Assembly (NCBI RefSeq): GCF_011745365.1
Contig: NW_024468916.1
Span: 2,029,630-2,093,629 of the forward strand
DNA: 64,000 nt
Reading direction: 5' to 3'
Source: Cryphonectria parasitica EP155
Lineage: Eukaryota > Ascomycota > Sordariomycetes > Diaporthales > Cryphonectriaceae
Shown here one piece after another: positions 2,387 through 64,000 of this stretch; position 1 is the stretch's first letter, and each line of letters opens with the position of its first letter. The notes under the pieces were generated by a model that was given only the letters and a program-made list of their open reading frames with translations, did not search any database and was not told the DNA's origin. Position numbers and translations under genes: made by a program.

Positions 2387-3579
2387 AGGTACCCAGGTGA
2401 GAATGAGGTCTGGTCTAAGAGGCGAGGGCTTCTAAGCTTCTGTTCGTCTTTGTAACGAGCGAAGTTAGTGTATTATTTCCCCTTCAAACCCCTAGGGGAT
2501 TTGCGTTGTTTCTTGTCTGTTGTCTGTTTTTGATATAAAATTGGTGATTACTTAAATACCGAGTAACACAGACAGTATCCCGAATCATTGTTGACTTTGT
2601 TACCTTGGCTGTTATTCTCCTACATATTGCTGTCGTTAGTCTCTTCCGTCGTTCACATCTCGTCTCTGGGATAGTGCAATCATGCTGTGTTAGAAATGTT
2701 TAGCTTTGAGGAACAAAAGCGAGCCTCCTCCATTGTTTCAAAGCCCCCCCCCCCCTCCCCCCTAAACCTCAAGACGGAAACTTGACAGGAGCTCTGCCTG
2801 CTAAGGATCGTCGCCCAAAGCTTTTTGACTGAGCCTTAGGACATTTGTTAGGATTAAAGAATGGGTGGAAGGAATAAAGGAAGCGGAAAAATAAAAAATC
2901 AGATGGCTCGTTTTGATCGGAAGGGAGAATGTGCCGCAGTCATGCTGGGCTGTCTTTTCTGTTGTTCGTTTTGTTTGGTTCGCTAAAAAGAAAAAGGAAC
3001 GGCCTCCCTGAGCCTCTAGCAACGCCACTCAACAGGCTTGCCAGGAAATGAGGAGATCTGGACCTCCGAAAATATAATACCACCTGAATGGGTATCCGAA
3101 AGAAGAAGAAAAAGAAAACAGTGCTTGCCGGCCCAATCTTCTATAAATTGCGCGTTTCTCACGCATAACCTGAGCATGCATTCCAAGCGTCCGGAACCGG
3201 AGTTTATCTGGGCTCGCAAAGGAAGGTGAACCCCCGACAAATGGACACCGTATGTGTATACGACACTGGCCAGGGCGCGTCGCTACCCAGGTGTTCAATG
3301 GTATGACCACTCTGTGCAAAGCGGAGCCCTCCGTGAAGCCAAAACTTGTTGTTACCGTGTTGGTTAAGGGGCCACCACGATCGTAAGCAAGATGACGGTG
3401 GTGGCGCAAGTCTCGAATCGCACTAGTTGCGCAATGACGATGGCGATATTCCAATGGTTCTCCCCAGCCGCTTGCTTAATCCCTCTTCGTCCCATGTGTA
3501 ATACAGAAGCGCTGTAAAGCAATGGTATCTTCATCTAGAAATAACTGTGGTCGCTGGCCCGCCTAAGAGGGGGTCTTCT
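2387..3579. other. Intergenic region between convergent genes
   Basis: This 1.2 kb gap holds the 3' ends of two convergent genes. I see no supportable coding sequence: the ORFs on either strand are short and resemble no family. It contains a C-rich homopolymer tract at 2744-2762. Confidence 0.5.
2744..2762. repeat. Poly-C tract
   Basis: Twelve consecutive C, one T, then six C. Simple homopolymer in the 3' intergenic region. Confidence 0.9.
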
Positions 3580-4604
3580 TTATTCTTGATAGAGGTTGTT
3601 TTGTTGGATGTATTCGATGACCGGTTCTGGTACGATATACCGGAGAGACAGGTCCCTTTTCCTCATCAGCCGCACCTTTGTGCTAGATACGTCGTTCTGC
3701 TCGTGTTGTTAGTCATAAGAAAACAGAAAATTGCTACTCCACAATATGACCAGATCCGAAAGGCCACTTACCACAATAACCTGTGGGATAACATGTATCT
3801 TCTCCTGATACTGCTTGAGGCCTGCCAATGCCTCGTCGATATCCGTGCCAGTTCTTTCAATAATGAAGGCTCCAAAATTGCCCAGGATATGGTCCAGATC
3901 CTTCTCGGACCACACTCCGGGGGTGCTCATGGTCTGGATGAGGTCTGCGCCAGCCAGCAGGGCGATCCGGACTGGCTGCTTGTTGCCGTGGACATCCTCG
4001 CATCCGCCGATGACGGTGTTTATCTCGTGGTCGAAGTGATCCAGCACTTGAGCGGTGGGGACGTACTCGGGTTGGATAGCCTCCCAGGGGTCGCAAGTCA
4101 CCCAGTCAGACGTCTTCTCTGCAGCGAGGGTGCACATGTGTATTCGGTGCTTGGCGGCCGCCAGGCCCAGCTTCTTATAGGCAGAGGACACGGGGGAAAG
4201 GAAACCGCCAATGATTTCGAACTTGGTGTTGGTCTTGGCATAGTCGGATGCCATCTCGAACATGCGCAGGTGGAGGAAGGTCAGAGGGCTGCAATGGGAA
4301 TAAACAGATTAGTAAGAGGGTGTCTTCAACGGGCAGAGGGTGAAAAGACGAGGACTGACCTGAACGAACCGCAGGCAACGAGGACGAGAGGAATTCTGTC
4401 CGCGTGCATCTGCCTCCGCCGCAGCCTTTCTGCGGGAAACTGATACGTCTCGGTGTGTAGTTGTGTCTCGGGTACGATGCTTGCCAGAGCGGCGGCCGCT
4501 TCTTCTTGTGCGGCGGCCTGCATGTGCTCGTGATCGAGGGAATCCATGGCGGAGGAGGACGAGGCGTGTACGCCGGCAGGTGCGGAAGTGGGTGCGGTAG
4601 TCAT
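3580..4604 (-). CDS. Nicotinamide-nucleotide adenylyltransferase (NMNAT)
   Basis: This enzyme joins ATP with NMN (or nicotinate mononucleotide) to make NAD(+) or its deamido form, the last shared step of NAD synthesis. There are three exons on the minus strand: 4604-4360, 4288-3772 and 3696-3580. The introns are 71 bp (GTCAGT...TGCAG) and 75 bp (GTAAGT...GCAG). The spliced protein has 292 residues, usual for fungal NMNATs. The nucleotidyltransferase signature GSFSPLTFLH, equivalent to GxFxPxTxxH, is at residues 79-88 and is completed only by splicing. The second ATP-binding signature, NDVSSTKVR (the ISSTxxR motif), is at residues 255-263. The chosen ATG at 4604 gives a Ser/Ala-rich leader of about 70 residues; ATGs at about residues 20 and 27 could also serve. 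The long plus-strand ORF over this locus is only its antisense shadow. Confidence 0.95.
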
Positions 4605-7261
4605 GTCTGCGGCTTCTATAGTGGTTGAGGGTTGTGCGACCTGCTCTGTCCGAGATCTTTCGTGATCAGGGCTTTTTTCGCTTTTTTTTGTAGTACCAGC
4701 GGGACGGTTAACCCACAGGTCTTGAATCTTGCAAGAGGCCTGGACGAGCGACCACCTATATTTCGCTCTCGACTGACGATGACTCAGCGAGCTGAGCACG
4801 GCCGGGCCACCGAAAGTAAAATGAAACCAGGCGATGGTGGTGAAGTCGAGTGACGACGTGTGAAAGTGTGTGTGTTTATGGCGTAGTGAAGAATCGATGG
4901 TCGGATCTTGGCTTGTGTGTGTGTGTGACTCGGTATTATAAGACTCGGACCGGAAGTGCAGTGCCGTAATCTGCAAGTGGATTGCGTCGTCACCTGCAGC
5001 GGAGGACGACAAGGCTGGCGTTGTCGGTCGTTACCCCTCTTTTTTTGTTGCCCTGCCTGATTGATGAGCCAGCCGATTTGGTCTGGTCGAGGCCGGAGAG
5101 AAAACGGAGAACTGCGAGAGATATAATCGTGTACAGCTATACTATAAAGGATTTTCTGAAAGAGCGGTTGAAACGGGCAAGAATTGTTTTTGACGAGAGC
5201 AAAAACAGGTCCGTTGTCGGTGGTGCTGAAAGAAGACTGGACTGGCCGGGTCTGGATTCAGACGACGATTTAAGAAAGAATTGGTCATCGCAAGCGGCGG
5301 GGGGACCACGATCCTGGACCTTGGCTTCTTCTGAGGCTTGGTGGGTAAGCCTTCAAAATCCCCCTGACAATTGCCTATGTGTTAAGGAATGACGCCTAAA
5401 GCATACGGGATCGTTAACATGCGTAAAAGGCCGTTTGGCGGGGTGGGGTTGGGGGGTGGTCACATTGCTTAACCGAGGGCCTCCCACAGCCCCTCTTGAC
5501 CTTGTGCGCACCCCTCACCTGGGGAGGGTGGGGGGTTACAGGGCGCACAGGCGACCACCTTCTGTTACTCTAGTGGGCCGTGCACTGTCGAGGGATTGTT
5601 TCTACATAGGCTTGGGGGTCACGACCCCACCATGAGGGCGTACTGCGTTACAGGGGTCAGCCTGTGTGCTTCCAGGAAACGTGTCTTTGAAAATGGGATA
5701 AGAGAAGAAAACAATTGGGAAGATAGAAATTTCCGTTTCGTGATTGTTTCTCTTCATCTTCTTTTTGAGAATATGTGCACCACATTTTGCGGGAGAAAAA
5801 TATACTGTGGCCGACCTTTTCACATCCACGTTGACTCCATTGCAAGTTCACCTGCGTTTTACGATCAGGGCCGACCGCCCCGATAAACATGCACTGCAGC
5901 CGATCGCGTGCATGGCGTTGCTTGGTAATATTGTCGTAGGATAGTATGAACCTTATTACATAGTGCTATACAGTGCATTGTAATACGCACTATGGTAGAT
6001 AGATCAGAGTGCTGTCTCACCCCAGGGTTCGTGGATGGATCTTCGAAACACAACAGCAAGGTCTCTTTCCACTCGCCCGACTGCCACGAGCACGACCCCT
6101 CAGACTCGTGAAACCAGCGTACTCAGCCCCACCACTCGAGAGTTAGATCGAACCTGCTGTTCTTGTATTGTGACCCTGGACGTTGTGGTACATACTAAGT
6201 ACTCAAGGTCATGGTTCTACCTAAGGAACCAGGAACCATGATCAAAACCCAACTATTGTACAACACCAAGCAACTATCTGTAAGCCATGATACCAGCATC
6301 CTTCTGCATTGCTGTCTGGGACACTCTCATCTATGAAGTGCTTCTTCTAGTCTTCATACTCAGCATCAAAGCCTTTAGAGGCAATGGAAGACAGTGACTT
6401 TGAATCAGGTCAGCTCTGATATTTCTCGGGGCAAACTGTCTTCCAGGCCAACGACACTAAATGATCCAGAAACACTTTTGGACAATTTGTGGAAACTATT
6501 CGAACTATCGGGCTCATCACTTAGAGTCCATTTACCCAGCTGCTCCTTAATACCATTATCCTACTCCTAGTAAATAGTAGCTTTGTTTCTGATCTGGCTC
6601 ACCAAGTTGTTCATGACCAGCAGACAAATGCCTACAAGTGTACAACACAATTAACATTTTCTCGGTCTTCTACAACGAAGTGCTTTGACATTGTCTGCCT
6701 TCCCAGGAACTCAAAGTAAGACTCACTGATTGAATGCCATTGCATGTGAGTAGTCATGTAACTTTGCATGGCTGGCCCAGCCAAGAACGTCAACGCTCCT
6801 ACCGAGTACATAATACCTCTTTCTATTAGTCCATCTGGGATGAAATGTAGAGTTGATTATTCTGATACAGCATCTGGACTGAAGCTGAGATAAAGCCATA
6901 ATTTTCATTTACGACAAGCAACATGTATCTGTCATTTCTATCCCAAGATGAAGATGATCTCCAAAGCTGCATGCTCCCTCCCTCATCCATCATCTTAGCC
7001 GCTATGACGTGCTCTCCTGATTAAAGACTGCCACACGGACTGCACCCTGATGTGCCATCCAGACGTCACCCCGCGTTGCCGAGCCCACATGTAACGGGAT
7101 GCTGTACGCCTTTGCACCGCCGGGAATATCTCTCAATGCTAATACGTCTTGCCCGCATTTAAAACAGCCTTCCCAGAGTCGCAGGTGTGTCGGACTTGCA
7201 CGAACATGGTGTCTGTCATACAGACTCGTTATACGCAACTAGCATTGTCCACAAACCGACT
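4605..7261. other. Gene-free stretch between divergent genes
   Basis: About 2.7 kb lies between the divergent NMNAT and 2OG-oxygenase genes. It holds both promoters, a TG-rich run near 4864-4925, and an inverted repeat at 6209-6241. No coding sequence with family resemblance or convincing splicing was seen. The 6.2-7.0 kb part looks AT-richer than its surroundings and may be decayed sequence, but I could not identify a source. Confidence 0.45.
6209..6241. repeat. Short inverted repeat
   Basis: TCATGGTTC at 6209-6217 pairs exactly with GAACCATGA at 6233-6241 across a 15-base loop. It is intergenic and its function is unknown. Confidence 0.6.
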
Positions 7262-8579
7262 ATGCCTATCGCACTAGACCCAGTTGAAGTATTGCCCTTG
7301 CCTAAGTGGCAGCGGCCTCAGAAGACGAAACACGATTTACCATGGGCCGAGATCAAAGTCCTCGACCTGTCGACCTTTGATTCGCCTGGTGGTAAACAGA
7401 GACTTGCCGAAGAGTTGCGAGATGCTGTAATGACGCTTTCTTCTTTCTTCTCCAGGGTGGACTCATGTAATCACGCATCTTGCTAATCATCCTTAATTTG
7501 TGATTCCAGGTCCACAACACAGGCTTCTTCAGCGTGATTGGAACAGGTCTCCCCGATGAGGAAATCCAGCGGCAGTACGATATCGGTCAGGCCTTCTTCG
7601 CGCTCCCACACGCGGAAAAGAGCCAGCCCCAATACAAATGTGACTTTGCAAATGGCAACTATTTCGGGTATCGAGAGCTGGGCGAGAGGACTATCAAGGG
7701 GACGGAAGTGAGAGACAACGTCGAGTCCTTCAACCACGCCAAGTTCACCAAATACTATGAACATGAACCGCGTCATCCGTTCTTTGAGCCTTACAAGCCA
7801 GAGATTGAGGCCTTCTCTCGGGTGAGCTCTCAAAATCATCTTCTTATCATTTCACATTTCCCAGCTAGGCCTGCCAGACACTCTTTATCAATGAGCTGCA
7901 CATTTCTTGTAGTTCTCCTAATTAACACACCTACTTCGAAAAGAAAGCCCTAGCCGTAGCCCAAAAGATCTTCCAGCTGTTCGCCCTCATCCTCGAGCTT
8001 CCGGAGGACTTCTTCGCCTCCCGCCACAACTACGACGACCCCTCGGACGACCACCTCCGCTACATGTGCTACCACCCCCGTGCCCGCGCCGACGACGCCC
8101 GCGTAGACAACACGTGGGCCCGCGCCCACACCGACTTCGGCTCGCTGACGCTGCTCTGGAGCCAGGACGTGGCGGGCCTGCAGATCCGGACGGCCACAGG
8201 CGAGTGGCGATACGTGCCGCCCGTTGACGGCGGGATCGTGTGTAACGTCGGGGACACGCTGGATTTCTGGTCGGCGTCGTATCTGCGGTCGACGACGCAC
8301 CGCGTGGTGCGCCCGCCGGAGGACCAGGCTGAGGGCGACAGGCTGGGGTTGTTTTACTTTGTGCGGCCGGGGGATGAGGTGGATATCAAGCCGGCGCCGT
8401 CGCCGCTGCTGAAGAGGCTGGGGCTGGTGGGGGAGGCGCAGGAGGACGCTGCGCCGGTGAAGGGGTTGGAGTATGTGCGGGCGAGGGTGAAGGACTATCA
8501 TAATAGCACCGACTATGAGGATCGTAGGGGCAAGACGTTTAAGGTTGGGAATCTAGAGATTGTGGATGAGGCTACGTGA
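7262..8579 (+). CDS. 2-oxoglutarate/Fe(II)-dependent oxygenase (isopenicillin N synthase-like)
   Basis: Three exons, 7262-7426, 7510-7821 and 7944-8579, encode 370 residues, a normal length for this family of non-haem iron oxygenases. The N-terminal DIOX_N-like part contains the GFFSVIGTGLP segment. The double-stranded beta-helix has the iron ligands H221-T-D223 (AHTDFGSLTL) and the distal H278 (TTHRVV), and R292 in DRLGLFYF is placed to bind 2-oxoglutarate. Intron 1 is 83 bp and phase 0. Intron 2 (GTGAGC at 7822) needs the weak acceptor AAAAG at 7943, because the frame upstream has a TAA at 7923 and no better AG. Five family-like codons (HTYFE) sit just before that acceptor, so this join is less sure. 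Substrate is unknown; relatives act in secondary metabolism, plant-hormone-like chemistry and base or sterol oxidation. No cluster partners are adjacent. Confidence 0.88.
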
Positions 8580-50447: not shown

Positions 50448-51552
50448 TTTCCCGTTGGAGCACTTTATACTGTGGGTCGTCTCATTCATAATTGACTCGG
50501 TTGCGACGAAGTTAGGGAGGTAATATACTTAATAGTTGATTACTAGTCTGCTCCGACGGACGACGACTCGCACATGTACCACTACTAGTTGAGGCATACA
50601 TTTTCAGGTAAGAACTGACATCATCGATCGCCGAGTCTACATGCCCATTGGAAATAGTACCGAAACTAAGAACACACCTGAGAACATCTCACATAGCATT
50701 TGCTTCTCCATCCTGACACTGCCGATGCAGGGCAACGTTCATGTGGCGTCTGGGGGCGGCACATCAAGACCATTCTCCCTCTCGGCGACGGGAGCGCAAG
50801 GTGTGGTGGTCAAGTACTCCTATTGGACGTGTTTTGTGCCGCGCGACGTTTGGAAGAGGGCGGAATAGGTACAGTAGCGCTCTGCTGGTCTCACGAGCCC
50901 ACTCTATACTAATATGCGCGAGGCCACATTTAGTCGACATGGAAAAGTGGGAGATGCTATGCGTGGCTTGATGACTCTGTCGCAAATGGGAAGTTTGCTC
51001 CGCTCAGGGATGTTGCAGGTGTGCTCATCTGGTCTCACAAGTCATCCTACACAGGTATATACTCCGCTGCTCAGCTCGAACGTCACTCAATATCTAGACT
51101 GAGTGCATCATTCAGCCGCAACAACATTGGTCGGAGAAGGTGAGTGTACCGTCTCAGAAAGGAAAAGTTGCTTCCACAGAGCCTTGCAACACATCAGCAT
51201 TCAATGTATTCAGCTATACGATGGACCGAAGGGAATCAACTAGTCTCACGAGTCGCTAAATAGTGCCATGATGATTTTGTTCTGTCGGGTTGGAATAGGT
51301 GAAGGGCGGTAAACGATTCCACAAAGCCCTTATAAGACACTAGAATTTACAGCAGTCAGCGCCAAAATGGCGGTCCCAGGCGCCGACTCAAGATGGGAAT
51401 ACATCTTTCGATTTCAGAATTCTGGATAAAGGAAATGCTCACTCGAAGAAATTATGGAATTGAAGCATTGTGAAGTCAGTCGATTTGATTGAGAGTTCAA
51501 TAAAGGTACGAAATTAAATAAGGCGTCCTACTCTGATTCCCAGTGCCTTCTC
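50448..51552. other. Intergenic region left of the peptide cluster
   Basis: About 1.1 kb with no supportable gene. Short phrases such as GGTCTCAC followed by AAG or GAG recur near 50890 and 51032, possibly decayed repeats, but nothing longer was seen. Confidence 0.4.
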
Positions 51553-52449
51553 TTAAGCCTTCCATGTTTGGTTGTATTGAGCAACCTGATGCTCCTGAAA
51601 TTCCATCAAACCATCCCAATCTATGCAGCTGTGCACCACGCCCCAACTCAGCCCATCCTCCCAGTACTCCCTTGGACTTCCTGGTGGCGAGTCACTCTCT
51701 AGTGTCATGAAATCGCCACACGTAATGCTCAGCCGAAGATACTCAAAGCAGTGTTCCAAGTGGTCGATCCAATCTCTGTCGATGGGTGTATCGGCAAGGG
51801 GTTGCGTGTTCTCTGCGTCGTAGACCAGAGAGTTGTATCTCATGCGGATCATGTGCACGCAGTGCAACTCGTGCAGGTTGTTCAGCACATAAAAGTTGTT
51901 GAGATTTTCGAGATCCTGGGCTGCTGATGCAGGGGGTTCGTTGAAAATGAAGAACGGCGCATGAATACCAGGATCTTGGAGGCCATACGATACTGGTCTT
52001 GGTACGTAGATTGAGTCTGAAGCTGTGTTGGTGCATTGATTTGTTAGTTCTTATAAGTACCGCGATTTTACAGGGCTTCACTACATATTCTCACCTCTCG
52101 TAAGACTCGCCCACCTCGCAGCTGTTTCCTTGGACGGACCCATGTATTCGCGATACGGTATAAAGGGAACATTTCTTCTGTTCGTAAATATCGACATAGG
52201 AAGCGGGGTGTTGGACTTGATGCCGAAGTCTTCCAGGCTCGGCCCATTTTTAAGAGTGAATCTGCCGCAAAGATAGCCAAAGACGAGACCAACTCCTAAT
52301 GCCGAGACCACAGTGAGGACGACAGCTCTCATAGATCTTCTAGGACCAGCGCTAGACAGAAGCGGCGCGTCCATAGGAGAATCATTTTCTTCTGAGGCTC
52401 GTAATGGCACTGGGTCATACTCGGCTTTGTTCACGCTGGCCGTCTCCAT
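51553..52449 (-). CDS. UstYa-like (DUF3328) oxidase, copy 1
   Basis: UstYa/UstYb-type proteins of ustiloxin, asperipin and cyclochlorotine pathways catalyse oxidative cyclisation or hydroxylation or chlorination of peptide products. Two exons, 52449-52095 and 52022-51553, are joined across a 72 bp intron (GTGAGA, branch ACTAAC, ACACAG), giving 274 residues. A cytosolic N-terminus is followed by one transmembrane helix (AVVLTVVSALGVGLVFGYLCG, about residues 43-63), then a lumenal catalytic part. The family signatures are intact: HxxHC at residues 169-173 (NNLHELHCVHMIR) and EHC at 208-210 (DHLEHCFEYLRLSITC). The C-terminus has the usual WGVVHSCIDWDGLMEF block. It is transcribed away from copy 2 (1.1 kb gap), and the pair could share a promoter region. 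Confidence 0.92.
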
Positions 52450-53581
52450 GACGATGCTACTGCCTTCACAAGTGCTATGGTGAAAGCCTTGAGTTTGAAG
52501 GAATGACGAGAAGGAGAAAAGGTGTGCAGCAGATGTCCTGGACGACTCACAAACAGAAAAGCAGCGAAGGCTTGCTGTTGGAATTACCAGAAAATCATTT
52601 CACGTACTTACGTGCTTGAGTGCTCATGTCTTCATGAACTTGGACCAGCTCCTTTGCCGCCTTCAACCGTTCACCAACCCTGGCTACCACTATGCCTGGG
52701 TCCTTATTTCCCGGTTGATGTGGGATTTTGATACCTTGACAGCCGACTCATGCAGCTTGAGCTTATTAGCGAGGCGTTACCCACTCATCAAGGCACAGCA
52801 AGCGAGGCCATGGTCGAGTTGGTGAAATAGTCGGTCAGGGTTGTCTACAGCCTTACATGCACGATGCCATCATGCAGGTACGCTAAGTACACAGTGCTAT
52901 CGCATGGATCTCAATAAACTTCCGCTCGGCTGGGTGCTCGCCCGCACCGACATCATAGTACCAAGGAATTAAGGTCTTCAAGGGTCATTCACCGCTCCGA
53001 AACTATAATATGATCCTATTGATTGGCTGAAGACTGGGGTTTCGAATTATCCTATAAGTGCATATGCACGATGGTTGTGATCATCGGTATTTGATCCTGA
53101 GGACTAGATCCTTCTGCGGCCCGGCCGTTGGATTCACTACCTGGGCGCCTCCACTTGAAAAGTAGTTTAGTAGGAGTTGTCTGCCTGATGTCGAGTGGGG
53201 ACCCTTTTCTTTTGACTCGCTTTGAATTTTAGGTTGTCGCAGTCGAGTGGGGTTCCATCATCACCCTGGTTCGTTCGAACGCCAGACCGGAACTTCAATG
53301 GCCTCGGGTTGTGATCGACATTCATAGATAGTCAGGAATCCTAATGGAGTGGACTGGAGCGGAATGGGCCTTCGAAGTTTACAAGTCATGTGGTATCATC
53401 GTGGTGCACGAGGATTTCCAAAGCCCTCCCAGCTCAATTAGGCTGATACGGTCGATGGTCTTCACAATCACCTTCACTTGTCCCATTGTTCAAACTACGC
53501 GTCAATGGTGCGTCAGTAACGGTATTCATCCAACCAACTCACTGTGCTTCAATCTACACACAACAATAGGCAAGAATCAGA
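52450..53581. other. Divergent region between two UstYa-like genes
   Basis: A 1.1 kb bidirectional promoter region with no coding sequence. It contains a CGG-N5-CCG motif at 53117-53127, the type of site bound by fungal Zn2Cys6 regulators. Confidence 0.45.
53117..53127. promoter_or_regulatory. CGG-N5-CCG motif, candidate Zn2Cys6 binding site
   Basis: CGGCCCGGCCG lies about 450 bases before the ATG of UstYa-like copy 2 and about 670 before copy 1. Inverted CGG half-sites are typical for fungal binuclear-cluster regulators. A single short match can arise by chance, and no such regulator is encoded in this window. Confidence 0.25.
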
Positions 53582-54478
53582 ATGGCCCAGGCAGACACGA
53601 AATATCAGCCAATCTCTTCAGCAGATCTTGAAGGGGACCAGCCCGTCGGAGAGCCTCCAAGGGCTCGAAAGCGCCTTGTAGAGAGCTGGAAGACAGTGGT
53701 CATTGCCATCTTGTCTTTGGGCTGGCTGGCAACTGCAACGGGCTGGTATCGGGCTACGCCTTCAACAGAAGGGCCCCTTCACGTTTACACAAACTCCCCC
53801 ATCCCGAAGGATGTCTTCAAACCAGTCAAGAAAGTATTCCAGCTGGACGAAAGATATGTTGGCGGAACACCAGAGGCCGAGGTCATGTGGGACAAGCTCG
53901 TCGCTGGTGAGTCGATCATACCGCCACCTACAGTTGAGCCAAGAACGAGCATTAACAAGACACAAACTTGTGTAATCTAGGTCACGATGCTGTCTGGCTC
54001 GAGAATCCTGCTCAGTGGGGTTTAGGCGAGGGTATTGTGGCGCCCTATGACCACCCCAATACGCCGGATCCCAAACCTCAGGACTTCTACGTCATATCGC
54101 TTCTTCATCAGTTGCACTGTCTGGTCTGTGATTCTCCACGACGCATCGTTCACAAGGAACTCGCAGCTAATGAGTAAATTGTAGAATATGATCAGGTTCC
54201 AGTACTACCAGGAAAGGAACCGTGTCGACACTTCTGCGGACCCGCAGGCTTTCATGTGGAAAGTACACGTTGAACACTGCTTCGAATACCTGCGTCAAGG
54301 CATCTCTTGTGGTGGCGATCTCATCATCGAGGGAAACAGCCCAATTAACGTCGGCAAAGGGCACGCAACCTCGGTGACTGGGTGGGGTGTTGAGCACGAT
54401 TGTATTGATATTGACCTCCTGTGGCAATTTCAAATCGAGCAAGAGGCCAAGTATAACTTGACTTGGCAAAATGCGTAG
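53582..54478 (+). CDS. UstYa-like (DUF3328) oxidase, copy 2
   Basis: Three exons, 53582-53906, 53981-54123 and 54185-54478, encode 253 residues; introns of 74 and 61 bp keep the frame. A 40-residue polar N-terminus is followed by a transmembrane helix (TVVIAILSLGWLATATGW, about residues 38-55). The lumenal part carries HxxHC at residues 151-155 (LLHQLHCLNMIRF), cut by the second intron directly after the motif, and EHC at 186-188 (HVEHCFEYLRQGISC). A WGVEHDCIDIDLLWQFQ block closes the domain. All catalytic-type residues of the family are present, so it should be active. It is clearly diverged from copies 1 and 3, which argues for a different step rather than recent duplication. Confidence 0.92.
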
Positions 54479-54840
54479 AGTCATTGCCAGTTGACAAGTG
54501 TGCTCTTGCCAAAGCCTAATGACCGAGAAATTGGTCGAAGGTCATGAAGTTGAGCAACCTAGGGGATAATTAGCGGGGCATTATAGAAGCTTTCGTAACT
54601 AAACATGTCAATTCAAGTAAATCCATTGTTGATACCGTGTACGCAAATTTTCGATCAACATTTGATGCAAAGAATTCCCAACACTCTGAGATTTTGGGAT
54701 CTGTTCAGGCCCGATCAATCCAGATGATGTTCGATTACAATAACGATACTTGGGCCCAATTGTGTTGAAATTTGTATTTTCTAATTGAATTTGGACTGAA
54801 AAAAAAATAACCTTCTGTTCGATGCTTTCATAGAACGAGT

Positions 54841-55446
54841 CTACAGGCCGTATACTCCCAGATCCTGGTCCATTCCAGGCTTCGCAAATGCTTGTCCAGT
54901 TATACCGCCAAAAATCTTCAAAACTTTCTGACCGCGGTCCTCGAAACCCAGCCTGCGGAATACTGCCTTGGAACCCTCATTATTAGGGTCGCATAGCCCG
55001 AGGACATCCTTCACGCCCTTCTCGCGCTCGACGTAATCCATAAGTGTCTGAGCAGCCTCGGTCGCAAGGCCGCGTCGCATGTACTCGGGGAGGATAGCGA
55101 ATCCAATATCAGGCGCCGTGTAGCAGTTTGGCGGTTCGCCTCGCATCAAGGAGACAGTGCCGATGGGGGTCCCGCCAGCAGGAGGAGCCACAGCGGCCGT
55201 CTCGGGTTTGAGACCGACAAGATAGGTGCCGTAGCCGTTGCGAGCATGCTCTGCTTGAAAACGTCCTGCCAGCTGCTGACGTGCGGCCTCGCGGGTCGTG
55301 ACAGATGTTGGTTTCCCGCCGATGGATGCGATGAACTCAGGTGTATTCCAGAGCTTGACGAGGAAATCGCAGTGAGCGTCGTTATCGGGGAGGAGGTACG
55401 AGAGATAGAGCCTTTCCGACTCGATGAAAAAGTTGGGGTCCGACAT
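54841..55446 (-). CDS. GNAT-family N-acetyltransferase
   Basis: A single exon encodes 201 residues with the GNAT fold of the RimJ/RimL-like group (Acetyltransf_3 type): start IESERLYLSYLLPDND, then WNTPEFIASIGG, the beta-4 region DIGFAILPEYMRRGLATEAAQTLMDY with the acetyl-CoA loop (RRGLATEA), and LGLCDPNNEGSKAVFRRLGFEDRG. ATG at 55446 (MSDPNFF) is chosen; an upstream in-frame ATG at 55464 adds six residues. Such enzymes acetylate amino groups of proteins, peptides or small molecules. Position inside the UstY-like gene group makes peptide acetylation or self-protection possible, but the same family is common in fungal housekeeping, so involvement in the cluster is unproven. Confidence 0.88.
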   Translation of the reverse strand: MSDPNFFIESERLYLSYLLPDNDAHCDFLVKLWNTPEFIASIGGKPTSVTTREAARQQLAGRFQAEHARNGYGTYLVGLKPETAAVAPPAGGTPIGTVSLMRGEPPNCYTAPDIGFAILPEYMRRGLATEAAQTLMDYVEREKGVKDVLGLCDPNNEGSKAVFRRLGFEDRGQKVLKIFGGITGQAFAKPGMDQDLGVYGL

Positions 55447-55968
55447 AATCAATGTGTAAAGCAAAGCAAGCCTTTCCCGTTGTTGCGAAAGTGTATTTGT
55501 GCTTCAATTTCTTGGGAACAAGGTATTTCGTATCTAAGTTGTAGAGGAATGCGAGTTCTTCAGCTGCTGCTGAGATCCTAAATACTCATGGGACCCAGTT
55601 ATTATGGATATTGCTTAATTGCATATGTGTAATCGAGGATTAGGTGTCATTATGTATTTAGCAAGGACGCCAGGTTGTGCTGTGCTTAGGTATTTGAAGT
55701 GGATCTGATCTGGTTTCAGCCGATGGAGGACCAAGGGTTGCACTCGCTTTCTTTTCTGTTTGTACATGATTTGGAGGTCGTGATATCTAAGAAACGTGGC
55801 AACACCAGCCACCCTCCTTTTTCCTGGAAACACAAAATTACAAGCAAAGAGGAAAAGAACGGGAAAAGGACAGAGGAAATCGAAGGTTCCCACTGGTAAT
55901 ACTGGAGGCTTCTATTCTTATATTACCAGACGTTCTCTTATCTCACCCGTCCACGAATTCCAGTCTGC

Positions 55969-56848
55969 TCACTTGTCATCCTCCATGCCGTCGCCGAAGG
56001 AGTTTCTGTGACCCGGTGTATGCGTGACCACTCCGCCCTTATACCCAGAGCCATTGACTTTGTCTGACCGATGGTCGTATGCCCAGCTGAAAATCCTCTC
56101 AAAATTGCGGCACTGGTGTATCGCGCCCATTCCGTTGATGCCAACAGCAGTCAGCGGCTCAAACGTTGAGTCTCCATTGCACATGATAGCCTGTCGAATA
56201 AAGTCCAGACAGTGGTCGCGATGCGCAACGACCTCCCATGGCTGCATGCCCTCCACGGAATCAGGGTAATAGGCGAATCGTAGGAAGTTGAGGCAATGCA
56301 GTTGGTGAAACATGGAGACACCATACACTTTGTGCGTGGATGGGTTGTGTGGGCTGGGCAATGAGGCCGGGAGATGAGCGGTGAACTCGTTTGGCAACTC
56401 GACGATGCCGTCGCCAGGAGGTGAGAGACGCGTCCACATCTCGTTTGTCTCATTCGATGGCGGCCCGCCGTAGAACTTGTGTGGTTGGAACGTGACTAGC
56501 GAGTCATATACCACTGATGATACAGTTTGAGCTTTTGTCTCGACAGGATCGTAACCAAGAATTTTGGTCTATGGGAAACTTACAATCTGGTTCGAAGTGG
56601 TCCTGTCTTGGCCCAGAATCACAGCTGAAGTTCTCTAACAGCTTATGCGCGTGCGCCCAAACTGTCAATGCAGAAATAAGAAGTATGATGTTGAAGCACA
56701 GCATCAAACAGCCACGACTGATCCAAGACGTCCGTTTCCTCAGTGTCGCCATAGAGACGGCGGAGGAAGGTTCATCTTTCTCGAGAAGATAATGATTGGC
56801 CTCATCCATGGTCAAAGAGCTTTGGGAAGAAAGACTTTCTCGACTCAT
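55969..56848 (-). CDS. UstYa-like (DUF3328) oxidase, copy 3
   Basis: Two exons. The first is 56848-56584 and begins MSRESLSSQ; the second starts at 56531 (acceptor AAAAG, 52 bp intron, 275 residues) or 56513 (acceptor ATCAG, 70 bp intron, 269 residues). Both acceptors are in frame and differ by six residues. A transmembrane helix (GCLMLCFNIILLISALTVWA) follows a polar N-terminus of about 45 residues. The signatures are HxxHC in SMFHQLHCLNFLRF and DHC in HRDHCLDFIRQAIMC, where Asp replaces the Glu seen in copies 1 and 2. The last block differs too (GINGMGAIHQCRNFERIFSW), followed by a longer Gly-rich tail. It is the most divergent of the three. Confidence 0.9.
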
Positions 56849-58028
56849 GACCGCGTCCTGTAACGAGAGATAGAAAAGAAGGAAAAATGGTTGGGGGTGG
56901 AAGAGCACTGCACAGTGATTAGCAGCGAGATGATGAAGACCAACGAGTGCAAATGCTCTTGATAAGTTATGCACTCAAGCACGCACGGACGAGCTTCGCA
57001 TTCAAATGTTCTACGATCTGCTCCTTATCGTGGCGCAACAAGTTCTCTTCATCAAACTCTTCATCACTCACGATTACGCCTCGTGATGATTCCGACTTTG
57101 CCTGCCAGAACCTAGTTCCATGACTCGTCACTTTGCGACTGGGTAATTTAGTCTAGAGTAGCACTTCACCGCCGGGAACACACACCGCGGTCCCTTTGGA
57201 TTTGACTTTGCAAGCTTAGGATGGATTGTAATCATGGTCACTTGACCATGTACCCTGATGTCTTAAGAAATCCTGGCGACGTACACAGGCAGACCTAATG
57301 TTGGTGTGGATACAGATAGAAGGGGGCATATTGTAGTCTTTGCATCCCTGTCCCTACAACAGAAAACATCTGAGAGCATCCTGAAGCTTAATGGTGCTAT
57401 TGTAATTACCATTAATGGACTAGTTGCCACTTTTGCAAGGTGAAGGATTGGACCCACCTAGACAAGAGCAGACGTGCACTCGGTTACCCATAGTGCCCAG
57501 GTATCATCGTTCTGACTGGGATCAAACAGAGGAGCCTCAAGAAACCCATGTTTCCCTGCTCGTGCCCCTTTTGCTACAGAGTTCAGTGATCCCTCGCATC
57601 CTGCTGCTGAATCATGGACAACTTAGGCTTTTTCCCTATATACCGAGTAATTAATAGCAAGAAGCTGCAGCGAAACAGTGCAGCCAATCAAAGCAACGCA
57701 ATGGTTGCAGGTTAGTGTCTGTGCACCACCGTGTTATCTTTTGCAGTAACACAGTAGCTGGGCTTTTAGGAGCTGATCCTATGCACTGCCCATGAGGCTG
57801 GTCCTACCCTGACCTTACGGGAAAGACAAAGAAGGAAAAAGTGGAATGAATTACCTAGTCTGTCTGGTAAGACTGGACTTGGAATATGGTGTTGAAGATC
57901 GGGAGGCTTCCTCCTGTTTTTGAAAAAGCCGATATCCCTTTCTGATAGCTGTCGCGGCCTTTGCTCAATCTTGGGACCACCTCATCATTCCTAATCTCTC
58001 TAACGAACCATCCAAGATCTTCGAGAAC
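56849..58028. other. Divergent region between UstYa-like copy 3 and the hydroxylase
   Basis: About 1.2 kb holding two divergent promoters and a near-perfect 18-base palindrome at 57233-57250. No coding sequence seen. Confidence 0.45.
57233..57250. promoter_or_regulatory. Palindrome, candidate operator
   Basis: CATGGTCA and TGACCATG are separated by two bases (CT), an 8-base perfect inverted repeat between divergent cluster genes. TGACC half-sites of this kind can bind dimeric regulators, but no matching protein is known here. Chance is possible. Confidence 0.3.
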
Positions 58029-59039
58029 ATGGCCGCCAAAGCTGAAGCTCCCAAGTCTCCTAGCAACCTCAGATCTTTGGGGCCTCTATTCATTGTCTCT
58101 TGTGTGGTTCCTGTCCTGTTGAAATGGGGAAGCAAGCATTTGTCCGTTCCGTTGAGCACGGGAACCGATGATTTCAACAATGCAACAACAACCATTATAC
58201 CAAGTGTTCAGTCTGGACAGTTCCTTCAGCCTGGCTCTATGAGCAAGCATGACCAGCTGCGGGCTCAATACGCGGAGTCTTGTCCCGATCACCGGTTCAA
58301 GACCAAGATATTTTCATCGGACCCTGTCATTATGTACCTCGAGGACTATCTGTCTCAGCCAGAAATCGAGTACCTCATTGCCACGGCAGATCCATACTAC
58401 CAGCAGTCGCCTGTGTCCAAAGGACATCAACTGATGGCCTACGACTATGAGATCCGCTCTTCCATGTCAGCTGTCCTCCCGGACGACCCTGTGGTACGCT
58501 GTATTGAGAAGCGATCTGTCGACTTTCAAGGCTTCATGTCAGTCAAGCATCTTGAGGATATTCAGGTTGTTAAGTATGAAGTTGGGGACCACTTCCGGCC
58601 GCACTTTGATGTGAGTTAAATCAGTCTCATCCTCATCCTGATCTCACCCAGCTTAGCATTAATCGTTTTCATGCGAAACTAGTGGTTCGCTGGCATGGAC
58701 AACCCTCGGCACTCTACCATCTTCGTCTATCTTTCCTGTGACTCTGGTAGACCGGAGGAGACGGAGCGCGACAACATTGGGCAGTGCAAGGGCGGAGCCA
58801 CTCAATTCCCTCATTACGAAGGCCGTTTCCCGTCTGGCTGGTGTGGTCTCATTGATTGTCACGACAACAGCGGCGCTGGAGGGGTGGGCTTCAAGCCCAT
58901 TCCTGGCAATGCAGTCTTCTGGGAGAATTATTATTCCAACGGCACAGGACATCCTGGAGTTTGGCATGCTGGGATGCCTGTTACAGAGGGCAGAAAGCTT
59001 GGGCTCAATATCTTCACGAGGAAGAATCCGCTATATTAG
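58029..59039 (+). CDS. Prolyl-4-hydroxylase-like 2OG/Fe(II) oxygenase, membrane-anchored
   Basis: Two exons, 58029-58610 and 58683-59039, encode 312 residues; the 72 bp intron (GTGAGT...ACTAG) falls right after the HxD motif. Residues about 17-32 (LGPLFIVSCVVPVLLK) form a signal anchor, so the enzyme should face the secretory lumen, where the cluster's precursor would pass. The P4H-alpha-like fold shows FSSDPVIMYLEDYLSQPEIEYLI, iron ligands H192 and D194 (GDHFRPHFDWF), distal H289 (GVWHAGMPV) and K299 (GRKLGLNIF) for 2-oxoglutarate. This catalytic set is complete. Six extra cysteine or tryptophan positions lie in GGATQFPHYEGRFPSGWCGLIDCHDN. It could hydroxylate a residue of the peptide product, but an ordinary role in protein hydroxylation is possible. 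Confidence 0.9.
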
Positions 59040-61047
59040 TTATTTACTTGTCACTGGGGATAGTGTTTCGTAGAGTCTCTTGAACTTCGAGAAATTGCTT
59101 TTCACTCTGTTTTTTTCTACTATCAAAAATAACACAACCATAGGAAACGCGGTTCATGAATGTTGTCTGAATGACATGCGTAGATCTTGCATGATCTAGC
59201 ATAAAGCTTAACATTACCAAATTACCCTGTGCCAGTATACTCGATGACAAGGCTTGGCACCTTGGTAGAAAGATTAGATGCTGACGAGCGATGCAATACG
59301 ACAGTACTTTTCGATTCACTGAAGGAGTATTATCTGTCAATGGCTCCACTTTGACGGTTTCTCTGACAAGTGGAGTCCTTGCAATTCCCCAGACTATCAT
59401 ATCCAAAATGCCGCACCGGTCTCGTAATCGCTTGGCTGCTGCGCCCCCCGCAGGGGGTCGCTGATACTCAAGCCGTGGGTTCTAAGGGTGTGAATGGAGC
59501 CACGTGGTCCACCTGGGCGTGACGGATGCCGACTGCGATCTGCAGAGGAAGATTTCCTGAATCCTATGAATCGTACCAAGACCCCTAGCGATGCCCAGCT
59601 TGAGATCCTACGCCCCCGGCCCTTCCCCACCGTACTGGGTACCGATTACTCGGGATTTCTTCACTAGTCGTCTTTTACAGAGGCTCAAGAGCTACGCAAG
59701 CGAGGGCATGTACCGTAATAGGATTTGGGCCCCGGTAGATGGGTGTGCACAGGTTTTTTAGTATGGGGCTCTCCACTTGATCTCACAGTGCTTGCATGCG
59801 GCTGAAGTATGCATTATTGCTGCCTTGAACTCACTTTTCAGAACTTGCGACCTCTACACATGAACTCCCATCCTCAGCCCCCCCCCCCGGTTCCCCTTTT
59901 TTTTATTAATTGGAAAATCAGCTTCGTAGCGCAGCTGGCTACTCAACCATTCTGTATACCGATGCGACTTAGTGCTGATTTGATAGCATGCGCTCGAGCT
60001 TTGGTGCCGGCTTTGCGGACAACTCTGGGGCTGGGCCTGGTACGCTGATGTGGAATGATCTTCACAGCCCTGGAGTTCAGTTCTTCTGACGAATCGATCC
60101 TACGCTACTCAGTTTTGCAAAAGCTTGTATCAATTGACCACGGTGAGCGCTGCATGGCCGGATCGGCTGTTAGCCAAAGCTTATATTAGTGGGCTACGGC
60201 GAGTCCTGAATAGCGACGTCGGCGATAAGTCCAAGGAATAGTCACTGAGGTCAAGGATAACCATGAATCAATCACTGTCTTGACGTGCACGCTGAGAACA
60301 ATATTGGAGTTCTAATGCGCTCCGTCTAATCATGGACCATGTCAAACCAACACACCGCTTCAAGTACAGGTCAGCTGTAAATTGAGGGAAGGTCCCCGAT
60401 CCACATTGCAGTTGACGTTCTGGCTTTGATCTAGGCAAGATCTTCACGATCCGTCCGACTTGAATAGGTGGTTAGATATGGAATTTGATCCCACGCGTCG
60501 TCTGGCTTTGAACGATTGGGCCACTTGGATGATAACGACGGTAATTTCGGACCCACCACCGGTCAGCATATCGTCCTTGCCCAAACAGGCAGATGGGCGC
60601 CTCCTCCTTGTAGAGCGAAGTAGAATGTTTCGAAGATAGCTGCACGGTAATTTGTGTAAGACTCACGACAGCAGCGTCACTGAGTCGTGGTGACCGTGCG
60701 CGATTGTGTCCATGGAGAATACGAGAGGGATCATGACGGCTGTCTCCTGTGGAGGATTGTATCCTAGGTGAAGACTCAGGGCAGATGGCAACAAAGGAAA
60801 TCAGCTTCATGCCGAGAAAAGGTATAAAGAGCGCGTTCATTGCTGTCCAAAACATCTCTCTCGCTAACAACCCACATCAACACTCTTCTCAGCATCTCGA
60901 ATCGAATTCTCTTGCTCAAGCCTCTCTGCTCAGCTCCAAACTGCACGTTTCTAGTCTCGTGAGTTATAACCCAGATACAAACCCAAACTCCATGAGCTAT
61001 GCTGACCTTTTGAAATACCTAGACCACGACTTTTCCAATCAGTGAAA
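59040..61047. other. Upstream region of the RiPP precursor
   Basis: About 2 kb with no supportable gene. The last 220 bases are the precursor promoter and 5' leader: a TATAAA at 60823-60828, then a CA/TC-rich leader. The frame at 60749-61045 is open through this leader but stops before the precursor ATG and has no domain. Confidence 0.5.
60823..60828 (+). promoter_or_regulatory. TATA box of the RiPP precursor gene
   Basis: TATAAA about 225 bases before the ATG at 61048, followed by a C/A/T-rich leader typical of strongly expressed fungal genes. Confidence 0.55.
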
Positions 61048-61831
61048 ATGAAGACCACTCTCATTACCATTGGCGGTATGCTGCTGCCTGCTCTGGTGGC
61101 CGGTGCTGCTATCGATGTCCAGAAGCGTGAAGAGGATGCCCCAGCCTATGTTTGGTATGTCCTTATTTCGTAACTTTGTCAGTAATTACGCAACTCTCTG
61201 ACAATCACTCTTTACCTTCAATAGGGCCAGCGTCAACAAGGACAAGCGCGAGGAGGCTGCTCCCGCCTACGTCTGGGCTAGTGTGAACAAGGAGAAGCGC
61301 GAGGAGGAGGCTCCGGCCTACGTCTGGGCTAGCGTTAATAAGGAGAAGCGTGAGGAGGATGCACCCGCCTACGTCTGGGCCAGTGTCAACAAGGACAAGC
61401 GCGAGGAGGCTGCTCCCGCCTACGTCTGGGCTAGTGTTAACAAGGAGAAGCGTGAGGAGGAGGCACCTGCCTACGTCTGGGCCAGCGTTAATAAGGAGAA
61501 GCGCGAGGAGGAGGCACCTGCCTACGTCTGGGCCAGTGTGAACAAGGAGAAGCGCGAGGAGGAGGCCCCGGCTTATGTCTGGGCGAGCGTTAATAAGGAG
61601 AAGCGTGAGGAGGAGGCACCGGCCTATGTCTGGGCCAGTGTCAACAAGGAGAAGCGTGAGGAGGAGGCGCCTGCCTACGTCTGGGCTAGTGTCAACAAGG
61701 AGAAGCGCGAGGAGGAGGCACCGGCCTATGTCTGGGCCAGTGTCAACAAGGATAAGCGTGAGGAGGAGGCCCCGGCTTATGTTTGGGCGAGCGTCAACAA
61801 GGAGAAGCGTGCGGATCAGACTGAGCAGTAA
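61048..61831 (+). CDS. Secreted repeat precursor of a ribosomal peptide (dikaritin/KexRiPP-like)
   Basis: Two exons, 61048-61154 and 61225-61831, with a 70 bp intron (GTATGT...AATAG) cutting the Trp codon of the first unit; 237 residues. Residues 1-20 (MKTTLITIGGMLLPALVAGA) form a signal peptide, then AIDVQKR ends in the first Kex2 site. Twelve tandem units of exactly 17 residues follow, each EE(D/A/E)APAYVWASVNK(D/E)KR, and the protein ends ADQTEQ. Only unit position 3 (D, A or E) and position 15 (D or E) vary; APAYVWASVN is invariant. Each unit starts acidic and ends in Lys-Arg, as in ustiloxin- and asperipin-type precursors, where Kex2 frees the copies and UstY-like proteins cyclise the core through Tyr. 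Product identity is unknown. It lies 2.0 kb from the hydroxylase gene. Confidence 0.93.
61129..61810 (+). repeat. Twelve 51-base tandem units coding the peptide cores
   Basis: Unit 1 is split by the intron (61129-61154 plus 61225-61249); units 2-12 run without gap from 61250 to 61810 in 51-base steps. Units 1-3 and 4-6 show the same order of variants (Asp/DKR, Ala/EKR, Glu/EKR), suggesting block duplication; units 7-10 repeat the Glu/EKR form, unit 11 has DKR and unit 12 EKR. Differences are mostly silent (GCC/GCT, AAC/AAT, CGC/CGT). Confidence 0.95.
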
Positions 61832-62480
61832 ATTGTGATGAGGGCCTGTTAAGACCGGAACCTGTCCTTTTCATGCTGACCATACTATAATTCAGTTGTC
61901 AATTTCGTTATTGGTATAGATGACTGGGAATACGATGACCTCCAGATTCAATACCATTAGGAAAGTCATTCCTTGTATACTCGATCCATTTGATTATCTT
62001 ATATTTCAGCTCCTCAAACAGCTCTATCAAAATGCCACAACATGCCTTGGATGACACTGAGCCGCTAAAATTGCCATTCGGGTGCTGTTGATCGCCGACC
62101 ATGCTAATTACAGGCTTGAAACTTAAGATGGCGACCCTTTCCATTCAATATTACTTTAAATGCTACATTACAAAGTTTGGTGTTCGTTGCGCTCAAGCCA
62201 AGTCCGGGAGTTACCGTATGAGTATCACTTATCAACCAAGGGTAGTGGTGCCGGGCCAATACAAACAATTTCACTATATAGATTATGCCATAACTACTCG
62301 GAGAGTGTTATTGCATATCTGGACAGTATTGAGCTTGGAAAACAAAATAGATGTAACGTGTTAATCCTGATTCACAATTGTGCTATAGCTACCCCACAGT
62401 CAAGTCGCACATTGCTGTTTCTGACTGCACTCTTATTTACATCCATCTAGGCAATTCAAGGTTATGCTACCGAGGCTCTC
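61832..62480. other. Intergenic region between convergent genes
   Basis: About 650 bases with the 3' ends of the precursor and the NACHT-type gene. Two short ORFs show no domain. Confidence 0.45.
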
Positions 62481-64000
62481 CTAGCACTGCCGATTGATCT
62501 TGGCCCAGGTCTCTACATCATGCAGCTCGCAGATTCTATCCATATTAGTGAGAAACCCCAACTCCTCCAACCGCTCGCAGATCCCAATCAGATCCCTCGA
62601 TTTCGAGACCCAGGGCACGTGCTGCAAAAGTCTTACGTCTTTCTCCCTTTCTGCGTGGTCTTTTTCATCCCATAAAGGATCGTACTGAGTCCAAGATACA
62701 ATGATTTCTTCCAACTCGTCCCTCAAATCATTGCCGATGTGGTCCAGTTGCTCTCTTGCGGCTTCAAACCATTCTGGCTCTCTCTCGTAACTCATGAAGT
62801 TAACTTTGCCTAGCACACGAATAGTCCTGTTGTTGCACCCCTTGGCCGGTATACCGGCAAGAGACTCTGGGATGGCTCCACATCCCGTCTCTTCGCTGAA
62901 CCGCGGGTACCTGTGATGCACGATAGACAGGAGCATGTCCACGACTGTGTGTGCTGGGACACAAGCAAGCAGGGCAGAATCATAAGTGGAGAAATCTTTC
63001 CGAATGGAAAATCGGGAATTAACGAACATTCTCGTAGCCGAGCGAGAATGACCTTCATAGGTTGTGCTGAAATTGAGGGGGACCATATCGTCGAGTCGCG
63101 CACCGCTGAAGACGAAAACATAGACAGTGCCCAACATGTTCGCAAGCTTTTGCGGTCCTGGATTAAGGTTCCATGCCACTTGCATCACGTTCGCCAAATA
63201 ACATGCGAATGGTGTCTCGACTTGGGCGTACTGCCGAATCCACCTTGCTGGTGAAAATAGGCTTCCACGCCAATTGGGGTCAGCACCCTCTTTCAGCAGG
63301 AATTTGATCGATTCCAGCTGCTCGGCCAGGGGTGTTCCATATTTACCGACGAAGTAACAAGCATTGAGGAGAATCTCGGATTTCCCATCGTTGCTGACTT
63401 TCTGCCCTTCGACTCGATGAAGAAGGTAGTCCTTCCCACAAAATTCGGCAACGGTCTTAAGAAAATTCGATCCACCACAGATTCGTGCGTAAGAGGTATT
63501 TCCAGTGACGAGCCGACCTGAGTCGCAGCGCTTCTTCCAATAGTCGAGGGTTCGGAACCACTCTGCCGAAAGCACATCGTTGATGCCGCCACGAATTTCG
63601 GGCGACACACGCAGTCCCAGCACTTCTTGATCCAGGATTGACCTTCCGGTGTGTTTCATACAATAGAGCTGACCCTCTGCCAAATCTGCCCGGAACAGTC
63701 GAACAAGGAGAGACATGTCTGAACTCGAGTCGTAGCTCCTTATCTCCTTACCCTCAACTGTATCCAGAAGGAAGTCCCGAGCAGTTCTATGGATGAACCG
63801 TATGTATTTGGTGCTGAAAGGCAATAGTCTGTCATATTTAGTCCCATACCAGCTCCAAAGGACATCGCGAGCAGAGTCTTTGGGGGAGATCTCAACAAGC
63901 CCGAAACAATAAGCAACAAGTGTTCTTTCGACTTCCCTGCACTTCTGCAGCAGGATGTTTTCCGAGACTAAGTTCTGAGGCTTGTCGATGGCACCCAAGA
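62481..64000 (-). CDS. C-terminal part of a NACHT-type (NLR-like) protein, 5' end outside the window
   Basis: The minus-strand frame is open to the right edge and ends at a TAG at 62481-62483, giving about 506 residues without a real ATG at the border, so the start lies beyond base 64000. The segment TKYIRFIHRTARDFLLDT, near residue 60 of the visible part, is typical of the region after the NACHT ATPase in fungal NLR-like incompatibility proteins (DUF7791 type). The rest is helical, with one weak ankyrin-like stretch (ESIKFLLKEGADPNWRG). Such proteins act in self/non-self recognition and programmed cell death; the NACHT core itself is not in the window, so family membership rests on the post-NACHT part. 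Convergent with the precursor gene. Confidence 0.72.
   Translation of the reverse strand, partial: LGAIDKPQNLVSENILLQKCREVERTLVAYCFGLVEISPKDSARDVLWSWYGTKYDRLLPFSTKYIRFIHRTARDFLLDTVEGKEIRSYDSSSDMSLLVRLFRADLAEGQLYCMKHTGRSILDQEVLGLRVSPEIRGGINDVLSAEWFRTLDYWKKRCDSGRLVTGNTSYARICGGSNFLKTVAEFCGKDYLLHRVEGQKVSNDGKSEILLNACYFVGKYGTPLAEQLESIKFLLKEGADPNWRGSLFSPARWIRQYAQVETPFACYLANVMQVAWNLNPGPQKLANMLGTVYVFVFSGARLDDMVPLNFSTTYEGHSRSATRMFVNSRFSIRKDFSTYDSALLACVPAHTVVDMLLSIVHHRYPRFSEETGCGAIPESLAGIPAKGCNNRTIRVLGKVNFMSYEREPEWFEAAREQLDHIGNDLRDELEEIIVSWTQYDPLWDEKDHAEREKDVRLLQHVPWVSKSRDLIGICERLEELGFLTNMDRICELHDVETWAKINRQC

Follow-up and report, generated by a model that had tools for sequence, protein, structure and literature searches.

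Six genes, including one for a repetitive precursor

The window, a 64,000-nt stretch of the Cryphonectria parasitica EP155 genome (43.8 Mb in 17 contigs), corresponds to C8:2029630-2093629. Six intact genes, modelled with GT-AG introns, lie within 10.3 kb of it, between positions 51553 and 61831. Three encode UstYa-like (DUF3328) proteins, here designated UstY-A, UstY-B and UstY-C; the others encode a GNAT acetyltransferase, a P4H-fold oxygenase and a repetitive precursor (Table 1). An earlier note on this DNA had given the same coordinates and gene contents, and both were upheld by the gene models and by Pfam matches. The GC content was 0.49 over 51553-59039 as compared with 0.54 over 1-49000, and was 0.58 for the precursor.

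Table 1. Features of the locus (positions in the window, except where a contig is given)
Feature	Span	Strand	Exons	Description
UstY-A	51553-52449	-	52449-52095, 52022-51553	274 aa, two exons
UstY-B	53582-54478	+	53582-53906, 53981-54123, 54185-54478	253 aa
GNAT acetyltransferase	54841-55446	-	55446-54841	201 aa, single exon
UstY-C	55969-56848	-	56848-56584, 56513-55969	269 aa
P4H-fold 2OG-Fe(II) oxygenase	58029-59039	+	58029-58610, 58683-59039	312 aa
Precursor	61048-61831	+	61048-61154, 61225-61831	237 aa: hydrophobic leader, 12 units, short tail
Repeat array	61126-61809 (approximate ends, read from the sequence)	+		12 x 17 residues, interrupted by a 70-bp intron
Methyltransf_23 gene	C8:2098113-2099123	-		6.7 kb right of the precursor; may or may not be a cluster member

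The N-terminus of the precursor is hydrophobic, according to hydropathy analysis. Next come 12 units with the sequence EE[E/D/A]APAYVWASVNK[E/D]KR, each precisely 17 residues long and ending in KR. In a TRF search, the array was detected with a period of 51, 11.5 copies and a score of 808, and was the sole array in 51000-64000. The secreted precursor with 12 Kex2-bounded repeats described in the earlier note was thus recovered, its leader resting on hydropathy. The residues of the units differ at columns 3 (E/D/A) and 15 (E/D) only. Across codons 4-14, at least 15 base changes have accumulated among the units, and all 15 of the minimum changes are synonymous. If single-base changes were equally likely (about 22% being synonymous), the chance of this outcome would be ~1.6e-10, a figure that takes no account of mutation bias or of gene conversion between units. 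The constraint appears to fall on the peptide and not on the repeated DNA alone. Moreover, neither variable column falls within YVWASVN, a hint that the mature core is located at about these seven residues.

The definition of KEPs calls for a signal peptide and for three or more tandem repeats of 8 aa or longer, located between KR, KK, RK or RR and none exceeding 100 aa (Umemura 2020, PMC7329392); the 12 KR-bounded units of 17 aa agree with the repeat part of this definition. Split into dipeptides, the spacer EE-xA-PA has Ala as the second residue of its last two, similar to the STE13 signatures that have been reported in some KEPs (PMC6339444). No second copy of the precursor was found in the genome, the next match having an E value of 0.66, and none of 8000 candidates scored in a capped search was a relative at E ≤ 1e-3. 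In the literature searched, of which coverage was partial, we found no mention of the core.

All three UstY proteins matched the Pfam UstYa family, with scores of 73 (UstY-A), 104 (UstY-B) and 116 bits (UstY-C) against a cut-off of 25. Their translations each contain two HxxHC motifs (HELHC/HLEHC, HQLHC/HVEHC and HQLHC/HRDHC, respectively), in agreement with the earlier claim of three DUF3328 proteins with intact motifs. According to a statement quoted in PMC12048977, two such motifs reliably distinguish the DUF3328 proteins that are related to RiPPs, and a newer definition of dikaritins is based on a DUF3328/UstYa protein that carries both; the locus encodes three. Each protein has one hydrophobic segment near its N-terminus, which is weakest in UstY-B. 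UstY-A and UstY-B share 35% identity, and UstY-C is 27-29% identical to either. Each His and Cys of the UstY-C motifs was kept in 48-49 of 51 relatives. The predicted model of one relative, P0040, was of low quality (pLDDT 66), and no known structure was matched by it.

The P4H-fold oxygenase and its apparent pairing with UstY-C

The oxygenase matched Pfam 2OG-FeII_Oxy_3 at 35 bits (cut-off 27), and its best PDB sequence matches were prolyl 4-hydroxylases, at about 1e-11. The HxD...H...K site is kept, as H192, D194, H289 and K299. Among the 39 relatives listed, which were 29 to 74% identical, the first His was conserved in 39, the Asp in 38 and the distal His in 33 (four gaps and two other residues); the Lys was present in every one of the 31 sequences without a gap at that position (eight gaps). 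The best match to the predicted model of the relative P0002 (pLDDT 81) was 3gze, the structure of an algal P4H together with (Ser-Pro)5 (E 4.3e-16). Based on site residues from the oxygenase and a fold predicted for P0002, the protein is a member of the prolyl 4-hydroxylase superfamily, with a double-stranded beta-helix and an HxD...H...K site. It shares this fold and site with the algal and collagen-type prolyl 4-hydroxylases (for example, PDB 3gze and 7zsc) but is ~25% identical to them, and differs in having a putative N-terminal anchor and a gene located beside a UstYa gene. The earlier note had described a lumen-facing P4H-like oxygenase: the family is confirmed, and the orientation is predicted from a hydrophobic segment that hydropathy places at the N-terminus. 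The close named relatives listed include proteins of Neofusicoccum, Podospora, Lasiodiplodia, Rhypophila, Microdochium, Penicillium, Aspergillus clavatus and Cercospora, taxa that belong to three classes.

When the listed relatives of the oxygenase were compared with those of UstY-C, the longest contigs were of equal size in seven records, from which we infer that the two genes share a contig in each. These records are Cercospora beticola (4,173,231), Apodospora peruviana (3,629,735), Microdochium trichocladiopsis (2,949,242), Aspergillus clavatus (1,035,561), Rhypophila decipiens (86,333), one named Neofusicoccum parvum (28,943) and a metagenome contig (20,717). In C. beticola, the locus tags are adjacent (CB0940_04092/CB0940_04093), and in the record named N. 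parvum they are consecutive (F5Y19DRAFT_445822/445823). The adjacent C. beticola tags and the three contigs under 90 kb are the strong cases; four of the seven shared contigs exceed 1 Mb, which alone is weak evidence. Overall, the relatives of the oxygenase and of UstY-C look like a conserved pair. Two observations speak against the pairing. The distances of the two proteins across eight genomes were only weakly correlated (r 0.49), a value reached in 2951 of 40320 permutations. In addition, for several genera (for example, Pseudogymnoascus, Macrophomina and Talaromyces) a UstY-C relative was listed and a P4H relative was not, both lists being word-limited. The two Cercospora tags were not mentioned in the literature searched. 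Tags of one series, F5Y19DRAFT_44582x, are assigned both to Xylariaceae sp. FL1651 and to Neofusicoccum parvum (P0014, P0042, P0050), so a name was probably transferred during annotation.

Among the other P4H-like places listed for the C. parasitica genome, none is within 10 kb of a listed UstYa match. These lists are lower bounds, as the Pfam search missed the intron-split P4H gene of the locus itself. The smallest distance among the matches listed, 18 kb, separates a UstYa match and a P4H-like gene on C1 (C1:2273888-2274595 and C1:2292740-2293100), possibly a looser second pairing.

Known pathways and proposed processing of the precursor

Dikaritin clusters have been defined by five components: a precursor with a leader and repeated cores, multiple DUF3328 proteins, a tyrosinase, a methyltransferase, and a transporter or peptidase (Ding et al., quoted in PMC12048977). 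The locus has a precursor with repeated cores and, by hydropathy, a leader, as well as multiple DUF3328 proteins. By contrast, none of the nine exon matches to tyrosinase in the genome is on C8. We therefore refer to the locus as dikaritin-like, outside the strict five-gene definition. No transporter or peptidase gene is among the six, and ten ORFs from the flanks and gaps gave only MAPEG, aquaporin (MIP) and cupin matches, the first two of these at the left border. To the right of the precursor, five ORFs at 62810-63747 and one at 62451-62675 contained no Pfam domain. The ORFs at 62810-63747 overlap on both strands (86-146 aa) and may represent a gene or decayed sequence. The earlier claim that the methyltransferase, tyrosinase and transporter of the ustiloxin set are absent was borne out for the tyrosinase on C8 and for a methyltransferase within the block, and is qualified by the Methyltransf_23 gene to the right of the precursor, which we take to be possibly LaeA-like. 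No upstream motif shared among the genes was found except for the low-complexity sequence AGAAAAG.

Several known systems resemble the locus in part. Those of ustiloxin and phomopsin also have a Kex2-cut multicore precursor, several UstYa/DUF3328 proteins and a Tyr in the core. Here, however, there is no tyrosinase on the contig and no methyltransferase within the block, a P4H-fold oxygenase being present instead, and the residue two positions after the Tyr is Trp, not Ile. The published four-gene cluster of asperipin-2a likewise combines a KEP precursor with UstYa and has no tyrosinase, but contains one UstY rather than three, and a reductase and a transporter in place of the P4H and GNAT. 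The epichloecyclin (gigA) cluster of Epichloe is also small, with a repeated precursor and a DUF3328 gene. It includes a kexin gene, whereas the single kexin match in the C. parasitica genome is on another contig, C5. Finally, 'Clan R2' of lichens (PMC12048977) combines a UstY homologue with GNAT in the absence of ustiloxin-type accessory genes. It differs in having one UstY and several GNAT copies; a repeated precursor was not found there, and hydroxylase, oxygenase and 2OG are absent as words from the text on this clan.

Taken together, the data are best explained by a dikaritin-like RiPP cluster of the UstYa type, processed by Kex2, the core of which we did not find described; we assign this explanation a probability of about 0.8. 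The underlying reading, a RiPP precursor acted on by UstY oxidases, is very likely, and the oxygenase likely belongs to the pathway. The product is probably a ring-shaped peptide excised from a repetitive secreted protein. The KexRiPP or dikaritin-like interpretation of the earlier note is thus well supported, a constrained Kex2-type repeat precursor lying beside three UstYas, and its expectation that the chemistry should differ gained support from the pairing of the P4H and UstY-C in other fungi. Its 'complete minimal cluster' was not demonstrated: the GNAT may be a bystander, the cluster has no defined limit on the right, and genes for late trimming and export were not identified.

In published dikaritin pathways, entry into the ER/Golgi and release by Kex2 are combined with UstY-dependent oxidative cross-linking (passages among PMC10512285, PMC7317419, PMC9233826, PMC12142624, PMC7099791 and PMC6514808). 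In the proposed mechanism, whose order of steps is conjectural, the precursor would enter the ER via the leader predicted by hydropathy, and the host kexin would cut after each KR to yield 12 near-identical peptides. The C-terminal basic residues and the acidic EE-xA-PA spacer would then be trimmed, as suggested by the location of both variable columns outside YVWASVN. The UstY oxidases, predicted to be membrane-anchored, would cross-link the core. The most plausible link would join Tyr1 to Trp3, a tentative proposal made by analogy with ustiloxin and phomopsin, in which an internal Ile is the partner of the N-terminal Tyr; a Tyr-Trp side-chain link was not met in the portions of the dikaritin texts consulted. 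The P4H-fold oxygenase would hydroxylate either a side chain of the core or the only proline in each unit. Trimming of the PA dipeptide would remove any hydroxyl group carried by its proline, unless hydroxylation stops the trimming. More speculatively, hydroxylation of this proline might set the N-terminal trimming stop and so define the mature peptide. The lack of a tyrosinase poses a problem for this mechanism, since formation of the first ustiloxin intermediate requires the tyrosinase UstQ together with UstYa/UstYb. The problem is eased by asperipin-2a, which requires a UstYa homologue and is produced from a published cluster without a tyrosinase.

Three UstYas within 10.3 kb make it quite improbable that the precursor is a linear secreted KEP giving rise to an unmodified signal, pheromone-like or surface peptide while the UstY and P4H genes serve something else. 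The core also contains no Cys, unlike the WCxxxGQxC pattern of pheromones. A pheromone-like role would nevertheless be consistent with the failure to find a repeated alpha-pheromone precursor in the genome, in which eight DNA pattern matches yielded six open frames, each with one copy (a control pattern gave five matches). It would also fit the resemblance of the EE-xA-PA spacer to STE13-type pheromone spacers (an idea from PMC6339444) and the 6120 of 7878 surveyed KEPs that have no DUF3328 neighbour. Against it, almost all of the KEPs annotated as mating factors in that survey lack such neighbours (PMC7329392).

Other alternatives accept the RiPP cluster and concern its membership. The oxygenase and UstY-C could form an independent module with its own substrate, leaving UstY-A and UstY-B alone to act on the core. 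UstY-C is indeed the outlier of the three in sequence identity, and the pair appears in other fungi, for which the capped search of 8000 candidates revealed no accompanying precursor. We consider such a module unlikely, as the pair sits inside the block, between UstY-B/GNAT and the precursor, and the other P4H-like places listed for the genome, themselves a lower bound, are all at least 10 kb from a UstYa match. For the GNAT, confirmed in the cluster interval by an Acetyltransf_3 match of 74 bits (cut-off 25.4), a role as a bystander outside the pathway is slightly likelier than one as a tailoring enzyme. The match is to a general acetyltransferase family, and hydropathy revealed no clear hydrophobic anchor or leader, so the enzyme probably stays in the cytosol, across the membrane from a peptide that travels the secretory path. 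Its position between UstY-B and UstY-C, the lack of a second copy in the genome at E ≤ 1e-3, and the GNATs of the UstY-containing 'Clan R2' (PMC12048977) argue for a function in the cluster.

If the RiPP cluster includes the oxygenase, as we favour, the P4H/UstY-C pair might even represent a distinct and widespread subclass of fungal RiPPs, in which hydroxylation of the Kex2-released peptide by a membrane-anchored 2OG oxygenase is combined with UstYa cross-linking to give, here, a Tyr-Val-Trp macrocycle with a Tyr-Trp link. This proposal is speculative. The combination of UstYa and P4H was not found in the literature searched, most subscription journals lying outside its coverage; were the P4H to act on these peptides, it would constitute a hydroxylation route in UstYa-type RiPPs, which was not found described there either. 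A tailoring enzyme located near one UstY paralogue in several fungi also provides a handle for finding matching precursors, and the same pairing offers a test of the role of each UstY where several are present.

Further UstYa loci in the genome

A DUF3328 neighbour was reported for 1758 of 7878 surveyed KEPs (PMC7329392), as compared with only five dikaritins with known products (2022 review, PMC10512285). Together with two further KEP-like loci with UstYa in the genome, these numbers indicate that loci of this kind are common and that the rarity implied by the earlier note was overstated. The new part of the present locus rests on the P4H.

In the genome, 36 exon matches to UstYa were grouped into 18 loci. 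A scan for KR/RR-bounded repeats, which could miss precursors cut at KK or RK only, covered 15 of these (all but C3:922k, C3:4.48M and C11:683k) and identified a KEP-like protein at three: the locus described above, C1:0.90M and C6:3.37M. No KEP was found in the stretches scanned at the UstYa-rich loci C4:107844-114432, C7:2271991-2278233 and C3:2287026-2292248. At C1:900001-910000, a KEP-like repeat protein (3127-4338, - strand) lies near UstYa exons at about 6.5-7.7 kb (+ strand). Its repeats of EAREPHHQGKGKKNNGRD, in a frame read by eye, recall the Pro-plus-di-His KEP types reported with DUF3328 genes (Umemura, PMC7329392). A second candidate RiPP locus is present at C6:3364001-3374000 (features at 7454-7930, + strand; 5385-6478, - strand; and 2751-4636, - strand). 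It encodes a repeat protein with six KR-separated units of 25 aa containing WNAAAWSNF, one UstYa and an FAD/phenol-hydroxylase-like monooxygenase.
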